A stretch of 36,648 bases of DNA from a virus: IMG/VR virus record IMGVR_UViG_3300044627_002903, positions 1-36,648 of that record; one strand, given 5' to 3'. Both the position numbers and the translations under genes were made by a program. Below, piece by piece: positions 7,885-36,648 of the stretch. Under the pieces are notes generated by a model that had not been told where the DNA came from, ran no database searches, and saw only the letters and a program-made list of their open reading frames with translations. Each line of letters starts with the position of its first letter. The first letter of the stretch is position 1.

Positions 7885-8787
7885 ATGTCAATATTTTCAT
7901 TAACATGCCCCGATGTCGGGTGCTATCAGAACTTCCAGTGTGATCCGGAGTTCCAGAATAAAATTGTGGCGGTGGCTTATGTCCGTAAGTCTGCTGCCTT
8001 AACCGCTCAAGAGAAGTCCACTGCTGACCTTTGGATTGCTGCTCTTTATGACCGTTACCTAAATGGTGAGGCTTACCTAGTGTTTAACACATCTGGTGAA
8101 AAGCCAAAGCCTGAGACAGCAACTACTGCTGGTCGTGGGATGCAGAACACTAAGGCTCTTGCCAAAAATCATACCCTGACTTATCAGGACATGCAGGGTG
8201 TGGTTCAGAATAATGTTCAGTTCTACAATGACATTCTTGCGACTGCTCAGAACTTTGACTTCTACTATTTTACACCTGGTCGCATCTGGGATGCCTCTGG
8301 CTACTATGTGACAGTTATCGGTGATCCAATAATCACTGCTGAGCTGAACACCTACCAGATGGCTGAGGTCACTGTGAACTGGGTTAGTAAGGTCAATGCA
8401 TTGCCTTATGAGTTCGATACAGACACATTCCTTGAAGGTCTCTACTACATAATTAGCTTTACCGGTTCAGGTAACACTTATGTAGGCAACACTATTACAA
8501 GTGGATGCGGAGCAACAGAGTCATCAAGTTTTTCTGCTGTTCTAAACATTGGAGCTATCTCCGGTGCGCCTGAGCAAGTATGGTCAATTGAGCAAGTAGA
8601 TGGAAGTGATGACATCACAGACATTAGTCTTGAAATTGACCCTGCAACTGGTGACCTTGAATGGACTCCTGGAACAGGCAGTGTTAATGGCACTTACATT
8701 TTCACTGTCACAGTGACTAATGAGTACGGATGTGTATTTGGTCAAGAGACGATCACATTGATTGTTGATTGCTCAGAAGAAGGCTAA
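7885..8787 (+). CDS. Probable major tail (tube) protein with C-terminal Ig-like domain
   Basis: The product has 300 residues. Residues 1-190 form one domain rich in Tyr, Phe and Ala. Residues 200-295 look like a bacterial Ig-like/cadherin-like domain with the characteristic ITDISLEIDPATGDLEWTPG and GTYIFTVTVTNEYGC strands. Siphovirus tail tube proteins often carry such surface-exposed C-terminal Ig domains. The gene lies 7 nt upstream of the portal gene. A tube role is inferred from size, domain plan and position. Another tail-surface structural protein is the alternative. Confidence 0.5.
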   Translation: MSIFSLTCPDVGCYQNFQCDPEFQNKIVAVAYVRKSAALTAQEKSTADLWIAALYDRYLNGEAYLVFNTSGEKPKPETATTAGRGMQNTKALAKNHTLTYQDMQGVVQNNVQFYNDILATAQNFDFYYFTPGRIWDASGYYVTVIGDPIITAELNTYQMAEVTVNWVSKVNALPYEFDTDTFLEGLYYIISFTGSGNTYVGNTITSGCGATESSSFSAVLNIGAISGAPEQVWSIEQVDGSDDITDISLEIDPATGDLEWTPGTGSVNGTYIFTVTVTNEYGCVFGQETITLIVDCSEEG

Positions 8788-21349: not shown

Positions 21350-22474
21350 ATGTCACTTTCAACAGCTAATGTCTGTCCAGCGATATTAACCTCCCTGGCT
21401 GACAACCTAATAAACAACCCAAGCAATGTGCAGATTCATGGCGGTATGCTTGCTGCACTTACCAGCCCATCAAATCTGGCAGCTGGTCAAATCATTCGTC
21501 AGGCCAATGACAATGGCACAGGACAACTCAAGGAAGTTCGTGTGGTTTACAAGGAGCGCAAACTAGCTTCTTCTGCTACCGACACCAAAGATTGCGTGGC
21601 TGATGGTCAAATGAACTACATCGAGGAGACAGTTCCAATCAACAATTATCGTGGAGTTAGCTTCACAATGTCTGAGGCTCAGATTCGTACATATTGTGAC
21701 AGCTATCTTGAGCTTACTCAACTTACGGGTTCGGTTCAACCAGGGCAAATTGTGGAAAGGGCTAATGGCATCGGTGCAGCTCAAGGCGCATTATCGGTCA
21801 TTCGTGAGATGTTCATGGACTTCCAGCTTTCAGCCAATGCTCTTGTGCAGGCCATCAATGATGACCTGATCACTGCTGCACTTGGAGGAGTTGGTAATTG
21901 GTTTGGAGGTGGAACTAATCCTAGTTACACCGTTGAGAACTCATCCGATGGCTCTGTAAAGGCAAAAGGTCTGTTCGAAATGAAGCAGAACTACATGAAC
22001 ACTGGGTTCAACGGTGCGCCTATCATTGTAGGTGGTGCTGGTGCGCTTCAGCGTGTATGGATGAATGATAGCCGCTACTTCGGTCAGGGTGCTAATGGTA
22101 TCAACTTTGCAACTGTTCGTGACAACACTGGCATTGCTGACTTCTATTTTGATACCAACATCGCTGGCAATATGACCGATCAGGATTCTGCCATCGTGTT
22201 TGCTCCGGGTTCACTTCTGTATCTGCCTTACCTCAACTATGTTGGTAACTATGGTCAGATTGGAGTTATGAATCGCTTTACTATGCCGATTCCGGGCTTA
22301 CCCTCTGTGCGTCAGGACATTAGGATTCTTCCGGATGAATGCCAGGAGACATACCAGGTCTTTTGCGAGGCAGCGTTTGACCTATATTCTGCTCCTACTG
22401 CTATGTTCCCAGCCGGTGATTCAAATGCAGGTGTGAACGGAGTATTCAAAGCTCAGTTTGTTGCTGGTGTTTAA
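21350..22474 (+). CDS. Major capsid protein
   Basis: The product has 374 residues. It follows the probable scaffold gene and is followed by a strong terminator, as expected for an abundantly expressed shell protein. It contains no enzymatic motif and is rich in Asn, Gly and Ala with segments such as APIIVGGAGALQRVWM, DQDSAIVFAPGSLLYLPY and an early YKERKLASSATDTKDCVADG. These fit an HK97-fold subunit, but the fold was judged by eye. No separate protease was found, so maturation may not need cleavage of this protein. Confidence 0.8.
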   Translation: MSLSTANVCPAILTSLADNLINNPSNVQIHGGMLAALTSPSNLAAGQIIRQANDNGTGQLKEVRVVYKERKLASSATDTKDCVADGQMNYIEETVPINNYRGVSFTMSEAQIRTYCDSYLELTQLTGSVQPGQIVERANGIGAAQGALSVIREMFMDFQLSANALVQAINDDLITAALGGVGNWFGGGTNPSYTVENSSDGSVKAKGLFEMKQNYMNTGFNGAPIIVGGAGALQRVWMNDSRYFGQGANGINFATVRDNTGIADFYFDTNIAGNMTDQDSAIVFAPGSLLYLPYLNYVGNYGQIGVMNRFTMPIPGLPSVRQDIRILPDECQETYQVFCEAAFDLYSAPTAMFPAGDSNAGVNGVFKAQFVAGV

Positions 22475-31770: not shown

Positions 31771-32155
31771 ATGCTACCCAATCTGCCTGCCCTTGCCTAG
31801 CTGCCCAACAGCGGTTTATCTATTCACTCCTCCTGGTGACTATGGCAGAGGCATTCTGGTCAACATCATTAAGCCAGGAGTCAATGTCCAAGGGCAGCAA
31901 TTGCTCAGCATTGGAGGTGATGGATTTGTTGAGATTGACTTAGAGGCACTGCCTGAAGGCTTCTTCAACCCTTGGGGTGGACAGTACACCATCAGCTTTT
32001 CTGACCCTGACTTACCAAATAAACCATTGACCTACATCTCAGTTGATGGTGAGCAATACGACAGCATCTGCCTGAGCTTCATTCAGACAATCAGCAATGA
32101 GGAGACAGTGATAGCAATTATTAATCCTATAAATAATGAACAACCCGATTTATGA
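31751..32155 (+). CDS. Cysteine-rich small structural-type protein
   Basis: The product has 134 residues. The N-terminus MALCCNKCYPICLPLPSC packs five cysteines in eighteen residues, after which the chain looks like one beta domain (VYLFTPPGDYGRGI, then GGDGFVEIDLEALPEGF). The cysteines could bind metal. It overlaps the terminase end by 20 bases and joins the next membrane-protein gene by ATGA. It is probably a virion or assembly protein, because it is placed with packaging and tail genes. Confidence 0.65.
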   Translation: MALCCNKCYPICLPLPSCPTAVYLFTPPGDYGRGILVNIIKPGVNVQGQQLLSIGGDGFVEIDLEALPEGFFNPWGGQYTISFSDPDLPNKPLTYISVDGEQYDSICLSFIQTISNEETVIAIINPINNEQPDL

Positions 32156-32354
32156 TATTGATGCAAGTTGTGGAGGCAAGCGCAGAGGCTGTTGCCTTAT
32201 CGAATTACCTAACGATGCCGAGCCTGCTGATGTTGTTGCTGATAGCTGCACTCAGCGCATCCTTCTCATTGTTTCTGGACTACCTGCTGGAGGATCATCC
32301 AGTTGGGCAGTGGTATCTGTCACAGATTCAGAAGCTCCCGACTTATTGGGCTAA
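32136..32354 (+). CDS. 72-residue protein overlapping a membrane-protein gene
   Basis: The product starts MNNPIYDIDASCGGKRRGCC and ends SWAVVSVTDSEAPDLLG. Codon use is normal. However, most of the frame (32152..32354) is also read in another phase by the membrane-protein gene, which has better start context (ATGA with the preceding stop). Both may be real, or this one may be chance. Cysteines CGGKRRGCC recall the cysteine-rich start of the preceding gene. Confidence 0.4.
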   Translation: MNNPIYDIDASCGGKRRGCCLIELPNDAEPADVVADSCTQRILLIVSGLPAGGSSSWAVVSVTDSEAPDLLG

Positions 32355-32547
32355 GCCCTTAGGGGAATGCCCATTCTGCTCCGGTGCTTGGCAGTTCCTC
32401 ATTATCTCTTGCCTTATTTTTCACTATCCATTTTACTTATGTTCAATATTTTTAGGCGCAAACCATCTGCTCCTGCTCCTGTTCAACAAGTGGCAGAAGA
32501 AGCTGCTGCTCAAGAACAAGGTGACAGAATACTTTACAGGGGTGTAG
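32152..32547 (+). CDS. Small membrane protein with CxxC motif
   Basis: The product has 131 residues. Membrane helices are visible at about 25-45 (LLMLLLIAALSASFSLFLDY) and 82-105 (FLIISCLIFHYPFYLC), with PLGECPFCSGAW between them, a CxxC next to the second helix that recalls small DUF1360-like membrane proteins. It starts in ATGA overlap, and its 3' end overlaps the chaperone gene by 109 bases. A later ATG at 32215 is possible. Function unknown. Confidence 0.6.
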   Translation: MILMQVVEASAEAVALSNYLTMPSLLMLLLIAALSASFSLFLDYLLEDHPVGQWYLSQIQKLPTYWAKPLGECPFCSGAWQFLIISCLIFHYPFYLCSIFLGANHLLLLLFNKWQKKLLLKNKVTEYFTGV

Positions 32548-33191
32548 CTCCGAAAGACCGCTGGGATCAGATTGAGTTTGCCTTCACCTCCGGTGGAGTC
32601 AATTACTTCAAGTTTACAGCAGAGGTCAATGTGCCATTCCAGAGGGCAGTGGCAGCCAGAGACATCTTCACCGAAGAGCTTTGGCAGATTAACCCAGACT
32701 ACCTAAAAGGCTGGAACAATGGCCTAATCAATCTACTGCTGGACAAGAAGAAGAAGGATGATAAGAAGCTCTATGAGATAGGCATTCTCGCATCCCGGCT
32801 AAAGGAGCAGATGGAGCTTTCGGTTAGCCTGGTTAGGCAGATGAAGCTGGCAACGGTTGTCTACTTTGACGAACATGAGAATCCACTGGACTATCAATAC
32901 CCATACAACAAGTCTAAGCTCAGCCATTGGATGGAGCATAATGATGTTCAGGGTTTTTTTTTGAATCTGCCGGAGTACGCCTATCTGCCCTCTTTGACCG
33001 AGTACAGCACGAATTTCCCGAACTATTTGCAGGCAGAAACTCTGCAAAACCTAAACAACCTGAAGCACATTATTGGACTGCAATTACCAGACAGCACAGA
33101 CAGCGATTTGATGAGCAGTATAGAGTTGCAAATGGAGATTTTGAGCGAGTTAAATACTTGGTCGAAAGGCCAATCTACGAGTACTATTTAA
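32439..33191 (+). CDS. Tail assembly chaperone G-like protein (unshifted form)
   Basis: The start is placed at ATG 32439 (MFNIFRRKPSAPAPVQQVAE), because the upstream frame lies inside the membrane gene. The product is 250 residues: a Pro/Ala-rich head, a central domain (ILYRGVAPKDRWDQIEFAFT), and a helix-rich middle. It is the last gene before the tape measure, where tail assembly chaperones are encoded. A run of nine T at 32954..32962 marks a likely frameshift point. After it the normal frame continues for 76 codons and is rich in Leu, Asn and Ser. Confidence 0.6.
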   Translation: MFNIFRRKPSAPAPVQQVAEEAAAQEQGDRILYRGVAPKDRWDQIEFAFTSGGVNYFKFTAEVNVPFQRAVAARDIFTEELWQINPDYLKGWNNGLINLLLDKKKKDDKKLYEIGILASRLKEQMELSVSLVRQMKLATVVYFDEHENPLDYQYPYNKSKLSHWMEHNDVQGFFLNLPEYAYLPSLTEYSTNFPNYLQAETLQNLNNLKHIIGLQLPDSTDSDLMSSIELQMEILSELNTWSKGQSTSTI

Positions 33192-33244
33192 TTGTGAGTA
33201 GCTATATTGCGGATCAAAAGAAGAGGACTAATGTGAGAACATAA
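32439..33244 (+). CDS. Tail assembly chaperone GT-like fusion by -1 frameshift
   Basis: Slipping back one base in T-TTT-TTT (32954..32960) leads into a frame open for 93 codons from 32963 to TAA 33242. The fusion has about 268 residues. Its tail is balanced and helical, rich in Arg, Glu and Tyr (FDEQYRVANGDFERVKYLVE then RPIYEYYLIVSSYIADQKKR), more protein-like than the unshifted tail. In many siphoviruses the T domain is made by such a slip and binds the tape measure. A sequencing error in the T run is the alternative. Confidence 0.55.
32954..32963 (+). promoter_or_regulatory. Slippery T9G run
   Basis: Nine T followed by G in the frame GGT TTT TTT TTG. It contains the canonical X-XXY-YYZ heptamers T-TTT-TTT and T-TTT-TTG. 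A -1 shift here accesses the frame ending at 33244. Confidence 0.6.
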
Positions 33245-33274: not shown

Positions 33275-33304
33275 AAAGAGCCACTGATATTCGGTGGCTT
33301 TTTT
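33275..33304 (+). terminator. Rho-independent terminator before tape measure gene
   Basis: AGCCACTG...CGGTGGCT (33279..33299; AGCCAC/GTGGCT plus a wobble and G-C pair) closes over an ATATT loop, is extended by A/T pairs and is followed by a T run. It ends the packaging/chaperone transcript after 33244 and separates it from the tape measure gene. Confidence 0.88.
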
Positions 33305-33322: not shown

Positions 33323-35698
33323 ATGGCAACGATTTCAACTAATGACATTAAGATTAGGTATGTTGTAGAGACAGCCAATCTGGAGGCAGCTGCTAATGCC
33401 TTTGATAAATTATCCGCAGAGGAAAAGCAGGCATTGGCTGAGTTAAAAAAGTTTAACCAGGAGAGCCAATCCACCAACAAGTCAATGGGTGAACTTGGCA
33501 GTATAGCTGGGAAAGTAGGTGGTGTTCTTGGTGGATTATTTGCTGTCGGTCAAATTAAGCAGTTTGCATCGGCTGTCCTTGAGACTACCATTAAGTTTGA
33601 GGCGATGCGGAAGGCAATTGACTTTGCCTCAGGCTCTGCCGAAATGGGACAGAAGAACTTTGAATTTGTTAGGCAGACAGCTCAAAAACTAGGCCTTGAT
33701 TTGAAAGGAGCAGTTGAAGGCTATAAGACCTTTGCCTCTGCCTCTAATCTAGCCGGGCAGAGCAGTCAAGAGACCAACAGACAATTCGCAGCAGTTGCCA
33801 AGGCTGCACAAGTGATGGGATTGTCTGCCGAAGATACTAAAGGCGCATTCCTCGCACTTGGACAAATGATGTCCAAAGGTAATGTACAAGCTGAAGAACT
33901 AAGAGGGCAGCTTGGTGAGCGACTTGTAGGAGCATTTGGAATAGCTGCTAAGGCTATGGGAGTGACTACTGGAGAGCTAAACAAGATGCTTCAGAAAGGT
34001 CAGGTACTTGCTGCTGACTTCCTGCCTAAGTTTGCCACTGAGCTTGAAAATACATTTGGTAAGGGCAACACTCAGGTTACAACTCTTGCCGCCAGCCAAA
34101 ACAAGTTTAACTCATCCATTGACCAGCTGATTCTAGCAATTGGCAACAAACTTAATCCATTCCTGAAGGGTGCATATGATTTGGCTGCTGGTATTGCTGT
34201 TTCACTCGAAAGAGCAGCCGGAGGCAATAAGGCAGCACAAGCTACTGCTGATCAAATTGCAGCTAGAAGAGTAGAGTCTGAACTAGCTCAAAAGATTCTT
34301 GACATAAGCATTAAGCAAGGTGTATTTATAAGCAGGCAATCGGCTGCCAGAGCATTACTTGGAGAAATTGATCAAAGAATTTATAATGCTCAATTAAAGC
34401 AAGTAGATGCTAGATTGACCAAAGATAATCTTAGACTTCAAGCTGCAACCAAAGAAATTTCTGTTCTTCAAGAACAGGAAAAGATTTATGAAAAGATTGC
34501 TGGTGTAATAGTTACTATTCCTCCACCTCCTCCACCAATTGATGAAAAAGAGCTTAAAAAAAGATATGAAGCTGAACTAAAACTTTTAGAAATACTTAAA
34601 GAGCAAAGGATTTTAATGGGTGAACTTTATGGCGATCCATTAGCTAGACTAGGAGCAGATAAGGAGTTTTATAAGGAAAAAGAAAAACTGCAAAAAAGAT
34701 ATAATCAACTATTTCTTGCTGAAGAAATTAAAAATGCTGAGCTTCAGAGTGATGTAGCTGCTGTGGAGTTCGAAAAAGGTGCAAATAGATTATTAATTGC
34801 TCGAAAAGAAGCTAATGTTGAACTTGTAAAAGAAGATAAAGACCTTTATGAAAAGCGACTTGCCGAAATGAAGAAATGGCAGAAGGCTTATGAAAAGGGA
34901 TTACAAGATGAAGTTGAAGCGGCAAAAAAAGCAGAAGAAGAAAAACAAGCAATTAAGCAGCTAACCATAGAACTAGGCCAAACACTTGTAGATGGAGCAT
35001 TTAACTTATACCAGGCTAACCTTAGCAATGAATTATCGGCATTACAGAAGCGATACAACGAGGAAATAAGGTTAGCTGATGGCAATGAGCAAAAGATTAC
35101 CGAAATCAATAATAGAAGAGATCAAAAGGAAAGAGAAATTAAGACTAGGCAATTCCAGGCTGAAAGAAATGCTGCTGTGGCTAGAGTTGTGTTTGAAACT
35201 GCATCAATAATTGCTAAATGGTCAAGCAATCCGATTACATTGCCACTTGCTGCCTTGACTCTAGCAACTCAAGCTGCTCAGATTGGCTTCATATTAGCCC
35301 AACCTGTGCCTGAGTTTGCAGAAGGTACTAAGGGAAAGGCATTCAAAGGAGGTAAGGCAATAGTCGGTGAGCGAGGGGTAGAGAAGGTTGTCACCGAGTC
35401 AGGCAAGGTTTACTTCACTCCACCAACTGCTACTCTGGTGGACTTGCCTAAAGGATCACAAGTAATTCCTAACCACTCCCTGAGCAGGCAGGAGGTGTTC
35501 CTGGCTAACCACTATGCCAACAGAACCACCAGCATTTCTGGCTCTCCGGTGGTAGGCAAGTTAGATGAGCTTGGAAGCATACTCAAAGGCCTGCCCATTA
35601 CTCAGCTCAACATGGATGAGCGAGGCTTTGAGAAGTTTATCCGCACACCAAGGCGAAGCACTAAGATTCTTAACAATAGATTTGGCATCAATAACTAA
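33323..35698 (+). CDS. Tape measure protein
   Basis: The product has 791 residues. The tape-measure N-terminal domain spans about 75-265, with TFASASNLAGQSSQETNRQF, KGAFLALGQMMSKGNVQAEE, LRGQLGERLVGAFGIAAKAM and ADFLPKFATELENTFG. A PPPPPP hinge lies near 400-405. A long charged helix (about 405-620) and two hydrophobic stretches around 625-660 follow (ASIIAKWSSNPITLPLAALT). It sets tail length, near 120 nm at 1.5 angstrom per residue, and is probably ejected. It overlaps the next start by one base (TAATG). Confidence 0.93.
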   Translation: MATISTNDIKIRYVVETANLEAAANAFDKLSAEEKQALAELKKFNQESQSTNKSMGELGSIAGKVGGVLGGLFAVGQIKQFASAVLETTIKFEAMRKAIDFASGSAEMGQKNFEFVRQTAQKLGLDLKGAVEGYKTFASASNLAGQSSQETNRQFAAVAKAAQVMGLSAEDTKGAFLALGQMMSKGNVQAEELRGQLGERLVGAFGIAAKAMGVTTGELNKMLQKGQVLAADFLPKFATELENTFGKGNTQVTTLAASQNKFNSSIDQLILAIGNKLNPFLKGAYDLAAGIAVSLERAAGGNKAAQATADQIAARRVESELAQKILDISIKQGVFISRQSAARALLGEIDQRIYNAQLKQVDARLTKDNLRLQAATKEISVLQEQEKIYEKIAGVIVTIPPPPPPIDEKELKKRYEAELKLLEILKEQRILMGELYGDPLARLGADKEFYKEKEKLQKRYNQLFLAEEIKNAELQSDVAAVEFEKGANRLLIARKEANVELVKEDKDLYEKRLAEMKKWQKAYEKGLQDEVEAAKKAEEEKQAIKQLTIELGQTLVDGAFNLYQANLSNELSALQKRYNEEIRLADGNEQKITEINNRRDQKEREIKTRQFQAERNAAVARVVFETASIIAKWSSNPITLPLAALTLATQAAQIGFILAQPVPEFAEGTKGKAFKGGKAIVGERGVEKVVTESGKVYFTPPTATLVDLPKGSQVIPNHSLSRQEVFLANHYANRTTSISGSPVVGKLDELGSILKGLPITQLNMDERGFEKFIRTPRRSTKILNNRFGINN

Positions 35699-36648
35699 TG
35701 GCGAACTGGAAGTTTTTTCTTGATGGGAATGAAGTAGAAGAACCAATCGGCTGGGATGCTATTGAGTTCACTGCCATTCGGATGGATAGTCATGGCATAG
35801 ATCAACCATTCAGTACTGAGGTCAGGTTCTATGCGGAAGGAGCGAGATACATAAAAAGGATCTATGACCAGTACTTCATCAATCAACCCATTGCCATAAC
35901 CATTACCTCAGATGTAGGCTATGGCAACTCCTCATACCAGTTCGATGGCCTTCTCAATCTGGCAATCTATCAGGAAAAGAATGTCTGTGATACTGACTCT
36001 TGGGAGATTACAGTAGGGATTATTGATGATAATTTCAGGGAGGACTTCAAGGCCAGAACTGATGTAGAGATTGACCTAACAAAAACCAAAGATCTTAATG
36101 ATAGTACCATAAACGCATTGGCATTCCGGAATGTCCGGATGCACCGGATGCCTCTTTACTTGACTGCATCTGGTAAGAACTATGCGGATATTACTGGCTA
36201 TGTAAATTACACTTCAATTGTGGCTCTACAAGCGGCTCTTAGTGTTCCAACCTATTGGAGTCAATCAGATTTAAAAGAGGCTTTTGGAAGTACCTTAGAT
36301 ACAGGTACTATTCAAATAGTAAATGGAAACAATTTTGATGACGGTGCAATTTTTGTCAATAACACAAGTGTAACAAGGACAATTGAATATACAATAAAAA
36401 TCTCATTTGATGGTGTAAGATATGGAGGTGCGGCTAATGCAGAAAATGTACGGCTACGATTAGCAGAATTTGCCGGAAATCAATTTCAATCTGGAATTAC
36501 TCTTGAAAGTTTAAGTCTTGGTTTTAACCAATCATTTTCAAATTTAAACGAAACATATACAGGAACTTTTAATTGTCCTCCAGGGAATACCATAAGCCTA
36601 CAATTTGTAGCTATGCTTTCTGGAGTAGCGTGGGGAGCAGATATCAAT
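35698..36648 (+). CDS. Distal tail / tail-tip protein, N-terminal part (continues at 1)
   Basis: This is the 5' part (317 codons in window, 765 residues in all with 1..1541). It starts MANWKFFLDGNEVEEPIGWD, then GIDQPFSTEVRFYAEGARYI. A beta-sandwich-like insert (ISFDGVRYGGAANAENVRLR) follows at about 235-300. Its start within TAATG at the tape measure stop implies coupled translation. Location right after the tape measure suggests a distal tail protein. The residue at 36521 is Gly codon GGT, whereas the left copy at base 67 gives Asp. Confidence 0.78.
   Translation, partial: MANWKFFLDGNEVEEPIGWDAIEFTAIRMDSHGIDQPFSTEVRFYAEGARYIKRIYDQYFINQPIAITITSDVGYGNSSYQFDGLLNLAIYQEKNVCDTDSWEITVGIIDDNFREDFKARTDVEIDLTKTKDLNDSTINALAFRNVRMHRMPLYLTASGKNYADITGYVNYTSIVALQAALSVPTYWSQSDLKEAFGSTLDTGTIQIVNGNNFDDGAIFVNNTSVTRTIEYTIKISFDGVRYGGAANAENVRLRLAEFAGNQFQSGITLESLSLGFNQSFSNLNETYTGTFNCPPGNTISLQFVAMLSGVAWGADIN
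36455..36648. repeat. Terminal redundancy, right copy
   Basis: This segment repeats bases 1..194 with a single change (G 36521 for A 67, Gly for Asp in the tail protein). Removing one copy gives a circle of 36,454 bp. Confidence 0.9.

Follow-up and report, generated by a model that had tools for sequence, protein, structure and literature searches.

A slippery site joining two conserved reading frames ahead of the tape measure gene: a putative G/GT-like chaperone pair in a virus of Bacteroidota

In many siphoviruses, tail length is determined by frameshifted tail assembly chaperones. These G/GT proteins bind the tape measure protein and the major tail protein and are absent from virions, and in the textbook pair the unshifted form is simply the fusion minus its extra domain. 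The locus described here raises the question of what such a gene produces when both reading frames past the slip site stay open over a long distance. It lies in a window, meaning the whole stretch of DNA that was analysed, of 36,648 nt of viral DNA (IMG/VR record IMGVR_UViG_3300044627_002903, positions 1 to 36,648). The probable answer, to which we assign a likelihood of about three in four, is that a −1 ribosomal slip yields two proteins forming a G/GT-like chaperone pair in a virus of Bacteroidota bacteria. A direct terminal repeat of 194 bases with 99% identity (1–194 and 36455–36648), the copies of which differ slightly, suggests that the contig is circular or terminally redundant.

The features of the locus are listed in Table 1. 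An earlier note on this DNA had pointed to an in-frame run of nine T, a −1 frame lacking a start and open as far as the TAA at 33242, two long distinct tails and a location ahead of the tape measure gene, and all of these were recovered. The run occupies codons 172–175 of the gene for the unshifted protein, which read GGT TTT TTT TTG (32952–32963); complete relatives of this gene in the main clade are 250–252 codons long. Among 65 distinct main-clade sequences, the −1 frame contains no ATG, GTG or TTG before codon index 68, where TTG occurs in 15 of the 65, and a −1 stop is located 6, 12 or 15 bases 5' of the T run in every one. An internal start for the −1 frame was therefore rejected, none of the three start codons being within reach. 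Words of eight T are common in the window (five, against a mean of 4.95 in shuffles), and the argument thus rests on conservation of the site and not on its rarity. When the zero-frame protein of four sequences was held fixed, the −1 frame was free of stops in at most 0.05% of 2,000 codon resamples and in up to 2.2% of codon shuffles. The slip site and its two open frames are real and well beyond chance.

Table 1. Features of the slip site region and the adjoining tape measure gene in the window
Feature	Position	Strand	Details
Gene for the unshifted (G-like) protein	32439–33191	+	250 aa; residues 1–174 common to both products
TGA closing the −1 frame before the slip	32942–32944	+	
Nine-T run	32954–32962	+	
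Slippery heptamer T_TTT_TTT	32954–32960	+	P-site TTT 32955–32957, A-site TTT 32958–32960
−1 tail (T-like)	32960–33244	+	94 codons from TTT 32960–32962, then TAA 33242–33244
Zero-frame tail	32961–33191	+	76 codons (after two Phe codons) and TAA 33189–33191
Terminator-like hairpin	33275–33303	+	past the −1 stop and ahead of the tape measure gene
Tape measure gene	33323–35698	+	791 aa; PF20155 TMP_3, E 8e-29; PHROG tape measure families, best E 5.6e-64

Relatives were collected in four IMG/VR scans of increasing divergence (the best 80 of 133, 152, 169 and 267 loci, respectively), in a further IMG/VR scan using the tail as query (21 of 21 loci) and in genome contigs, where a first scan found no relatives and a second gave five loci. 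By their titles, the five genome contigs belong to MAGs of Bacteroidetes, Bacteroidota or Candidatus Azobacteroides. The census covers these collected loci, comprising 297 sequences, 285 of them with the N-domain motif. Of the other 12, eight are loci that belong to a different gene and two are isolate phages; the remaining two are locus L144, which begins too late, and locus L235, which escaped the motif yet has eight T and an in-phase heptamer. The 285 loci represent 161 distinct haplotypes, which group into 18 clusters when N-domain identity is set at 70% and into 9 when it is set at 50%.

An in-phase xxT TTT TTY word, 20–75 codons past the N-domain motif, is present in 285 of 285 loci and hence in all 161 haplotypes, including L190, where it sits behind a contig-specific frame break. 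Upstream in these genes, that word is found in phase at 2 of 22,379 codons. Such in-phase conservation of T_TTT_TTY, without exception among the 161, is expected of −1 frameshifting on an X_XXY_YYZ site, and the conserved slippery site leads into a start-less frame, as in G/GT genes (161 haplotypes, starts having been checked in 65 sequences). The T run itself is nine long in 154 haplotypes, ten in one, eight in two (L224 and L228, besides L235 outside the census), seven in three (L225, L226 and L227) and six followed by C in one (L241). The third codon of the site is TTT in 160 haplotypes and TTC in one. The first is GGT in 96, GAT in 28, ACT in 28, AGT in 6, GCT in 2 and GTT only in L190, owing to its frame break; it encodes Gly, Thr, Asp, Ala or Ser and always ends in T, the third base of 18–24% of the GGN, ACN and GCN codons upstream. 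The fourth codon is mainly TTG, with TTA, TCG, ACG or ATG in some haplotypes, so a second possible heptamer, T_TTT_TTG, is dispensable; it was rejected as a required site because it is disrupted in L225, L226, L227 and L241. The slip site of the earlier note is thus present, but conservation falls on the first heptamer, T_TTT_TTY (32954–32960), and not on the nine-T run as such. Both tails are complete in 151 haplotypes (L221, L082 and L190 excluded), in which the zero frame is open for 42–88 codons counted from the first codon of the site and the −1 frame for 88–112 codons past the slip; in seven haplotypes one or both tails extend off the contig.

The position of the gene is that of G/GT genes, the tape measure gene beginning 131 bases past the zero-frame stop. 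A long downstream ORF (729–1168 aa) lies −14 to 437 bases away in 15 of 15 relative loci checked, and only two of nine downstream ORFs from relatives (L236 and L269) gave a tape measure Pfam match. Three hairpins were found in the region, against 1.5 expected in shuffles. The terminator-like hairpin occurs in 87 of 91 haplotypes with GGT at the first codon of the site, in 3 of 26 with GAT and in 0 of 25 with ACT, and in L236, L219, L225 and others the −1 stop overlaps or almost touches the tape measure start. The hairpin may adjust the dosage of the tape measure protein in one clade.

Upstream of the chaperone-like gene are a membrane-type ORF, a 134-aa ORF and the terminase. The membrane-type ORF (32152–32547) has a weak match to DUF1360 (E 0.73, below the cut-off) and shares 109 bases with the start of the chaperone-like gene, with a similar overlap in L143 and L145. 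In lambda, the gene immediately upstream of the chaperone gene is that of the major tail protein, whereas here that neighbour is the membrane-type ORF, and no major tail protein gene was identified. At 7885–8787 a 300-residue protein is encoded that is present in 10 of 12 related records searched and has no PHROG match; as a guess, it is a candidate major tail protein. A capsid-sized protein of 374 residues (21350–22474) likewise lacks a PHROG match, and tblastn against the phage records found nothing for it.

The shared residues 1–174 are predicted to form a strand hairpin and helices, with pLDDT mostly 58–89 over residues 31 to 170. Both tails are predicted to be helical, the zero-frame tail at residues 186–192, 196–214 and 222–242 (pLDDT about 40–75) and the −1 tail with a mean pLDDT of 69. 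The G model overall has a pLDDT of 67 and a pTM of 0.46. Nothing significant emerged from scans of Pfam, PHROG and NCBIfam or from a profile search against PDB sequences, and tblastn with the fusion proteins of the window and of L217 against 50,697 phage records gave no match at E up to 1. In fold searches with the low-confidence G model, the best viral match had an E of 0.11, and the solved structures offered no notable match (best Z 5.8, covering two helices). The chaperone pair named in the earlier note therefore stands as regards slip architecture and position; no relative among known chaperones was found by sequence or by fold, so its identity, and with it the probable chaperone role, is inferred from synteny and architecture. 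The slip and both frames could be real and the protein another tail or head–tail factor, a reading consistent with the lack of a family or fold match and with a membrane-type ORF, not the major tail protein, as the adjacent upstream gene. It is unlikely, however, as a −1 site in a gene positioned before the tape measure gene is an established mark of G/GT, as described in the literature (PMC5009743).

In the proposed mechanism, one gene would give rise to two tail-assembly proteins sharing a 174-residue N-terminal part. The majority of ribosomes would stay in frame and produce the 250-residue G-like form. A minority would slip by −1, with two Phe-tRNAs on the TTT TTT of U_UUU_UUU (32954–32960), and continue in the −1 frame to make a G–T-like fusion of about 268 residues with the other tail. 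Both forms would presumably act on the tape measure protein of the adjoining gene, like lambda gpG and gpGT.

The heptamer is constant and the length of the T run varies, which favours −1 ribosomal slippage on U_UUU_UUU over slippage of the polymerase. According to a study in E. coli, motifs of the H_HH.U_UU.Y class are efficient, U_UU.U_UU.Y included and U_UU.U_UU.G not listed there, and U_UU.U_UU.U gives more than 0.10% without stimulators (PMC4066793). A search for stimulatory RNA structure gave no signal downstream of the slip in the window (z −0.36) or in eight sequences (z from +0.82 to −1.28), and such a stimulator was rejected on these grounds. Transcriptional slippage would proceed differently: the polymerase would add a U on the nine T, and ribosomes reading ten U would make the fusion without slipping, with the corollary that loss of one U would give GGT TTT TTT TGA, ending the protein as soon as the shared part is complete. 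The prevalence of nine T, in 154 of 161 haplotypes, leaves room for this, and the ten T of L221 would be understandable if both lengths arise anyway. Many bacterial genomes are also reported to avoid slippage-prone runs at a length of nine A or T, with some genes using 9A/9T sites for transcriptional slippage, programmed in IS elements and in Thermus dnaX (PMC1088944). The likeness to these sites is that nine identical bases join two frames; the difference is that relatives here keep the layout with six to eight T. In particular, the three haplotypes with seven T and the one with six T and C retain the two-tail layout and the heptamer although their runs are short for polymerase slippage, so that a slippage-prone homopolymer length is not conserved (at most seven consecutive T in 4 of 161). 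Moreover, the two T beyond the heptamer are equally accounted for by a Phe codon of the −1 frame. Transcriptional slippage is thus quite unlikely, and −1 ribosomal slippage is the preferred mechanism.

Selection on the two frames was assessed in 65 main-clade sequences out of 73 distinct ones, those with indels in the overlap and the distant clades being left out. Changes were placed by parsimony on one FastTree tree and counted per opportunity according to their effect in each frame. In the overlap, the rates were 10.96 for changes silent in both frames, 1.48 for those silent in the zero frame only, 1.04 for those silent in the −1 frame only and 0.30 for those silent in neither. The corresponding rates were 5.49, 5.28, 0.23 and 0.26 upstream, and 4.59, 1.03, 5.00 and 1.46 past the zero-frame stop. 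Relative to doubly silent changes, those that alter the −1 frame alone run at 0.13 (0.08–0.22) in the overlap and at 0.98 (0.65–1.74) in the upstream control, where only the zero frame is coding. Those that alter the zero frame alone run at 0.09 (0.06–0.16) in the overlap and at 1.12 in the control past the zero-frame stop, with a wide interval (0.60–6.57). The doubly silent class in the overlap comprises only 12 sites, but when the silent rate upstream is taken as the reference, the two one-frame-silent rates are still lower by about 3.6-fold and 5-fold, and the order of the rates is unchanged with kappa of 1, 2 or 4. Four-fold sites, few in number, point in the same direction: the mean number of changes is 9.92 at 26 upstream sites, while in the overlap it is 3.71 at 7 sites of the zero frame and 0.50 at 6 sites of the −1 frame.

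The same tendency is seen in smaller groups when the two kinds of one-frame-silent changes are compared between the overlap and its single-coding flanks: 0.53 versus 2.42 and 0.40 versus 1.09 in a group of 26 sequences, 0.10 versus 0.49 and 0.19 versus 0.97 in a group of 10, and 0.39 versus 0.69 and 0.29 versus 0.68 in a group of 8, the weakest case. In L145, both tails have diverged together, with identities to the window of 0.48 in the shared part, 0.38 in the zero-frame tail and 0.39 in the −1 tail. In the main clade, strong purifying selection acts on the overlap in both frames, and the site is kept in 161 of 161 haplotypes, in agreement with the expectation of the earlier note for its relatives. 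The unshifted protein therefore retains a 76-residue tail of its own, and the shifted protein would carry a different one of 94 residues. It is very improbable that the zero-frame tail has no function and is conserved merely as a by-product of the −1 frame. With the −1 protein of four sequences held fixed, the zero frame is open by chance in 4–13% of resamples and 2–10% of shuffles, so its openness alone says little; but zero-frame-altering changes silent in the −1 frame are held to 0.09 in the overlap, against 1.12 past the stop, and nine residues of the zero-frame tail (L177, P178, P184, S185, E188, E200, H210, W241 and S242) are invariant in 38 diverse members.

Three haplotypes depart from the two-tail layout. 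L221 (4440–4460) is the single one of 161 with ten T, the length that would give one continuous frame according to the earlier note; its −1 frame terminates within a few codons and its T-like tail accordingly falls in the unshifted frame, possibly through a sequencing error or a reversed arrangement. L082 (940–975) has nine T, and an extra base about 31 bases further on puts a T-like tail of the type found in L136 into the zero frame. The contig resembles a recombinant or chimera between the main clade and that type. In L190, a frame break immediately 5' of the T run shifts the reading. Each of the three may be an error or a genuine variant. For the locus as a whole, a sequencing or assembly artefact hiding a run of ten T or another indel in a single continuous frame is scarcely credible, since, error-prone as homopolymers are and despite the ten T and continuous fusion frame of L221, nine T recur across independent samples (154 of 161 haplotypes) and purifying selection acts on the zero-frame tail as well, the conservation of both frames having led us to reject assembly error.

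The pair resembles gpG/gpGT of lambda in its common N-terminal part, −1 slip, start-less downstream frame and adjoining tape measure gene. In lambda, these features are described together with a slip near the 3' end of g, and many other phages also shift near the 3' end of G (PMC5009743). The slip considered here is not near the 3' end, a trait that is typical of G/GT genes and not strictly defining: from the heptamer to the end of the zero-frame stop codon there are 231 bases, whereas the slip-to-zero-frame-stop distance reported for the SEA-PHAGES set averages 26 nt (PMC10885494). Further differences from lambda are the selected zero-frame tail, the U_UUU_UUU heptamer and the absence of any sequence relation found. 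The SEA-PHAGES chaperones and a GeneTack HK97-like cluster, for which a frameshift efficiency of 6–7% is reported in two tested genes (PMC3711429), are likewise frameshifted pairs, with no Pfam, PHROG or NCBIfam match to the pair of the window. The genes preceding the tape measure gene in the Bacteroidota phages Arctus_1 (Leeuwenhoekiella) and P12002S (Polaribacter), assigned to PHROG 32987, encode about 208 aa and occupy the same position; they differ in being a single ORF that reaches the tape measure start. Kinship with these genes was rejected, the profile comparison being not significant (probability 0.3%, E 0.22), even though the alignment seemed suggestive by eye. In the open-licence literature, no report was found of a long dual-coded G/GT overlap or of chaperone frameshifts in Bacteroidota phages. 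On the best reading, the pair of the window would behave like a G/GT pair and may be placed among them by analogy.

Since the unshifted form also has a selected tail, the slip would exchange one C-terminal segment for another, unlike in lambda. We lean towards a domain swap by overprinted, mutually exclusive functional C-terminal segments, the two-tailed chaperone being ancestral to a broad lineage, here the tailed phages of Bacteroidota that have no match among the phage records searched. Gene finders calling one frame only would overlook the T-like protein of this lineage. The natural runs of 6 to 10 T are sites for which ribosomal and transcriptional slippage predict differing outcomes. The locus also provides a DNA virus in which dual coding can be studied as a clean natural case, flanked on either side by single-coding controls, and because both forms carry their own selected tail over about 200 bases, the role of the tail of the G-only form becomes testable.
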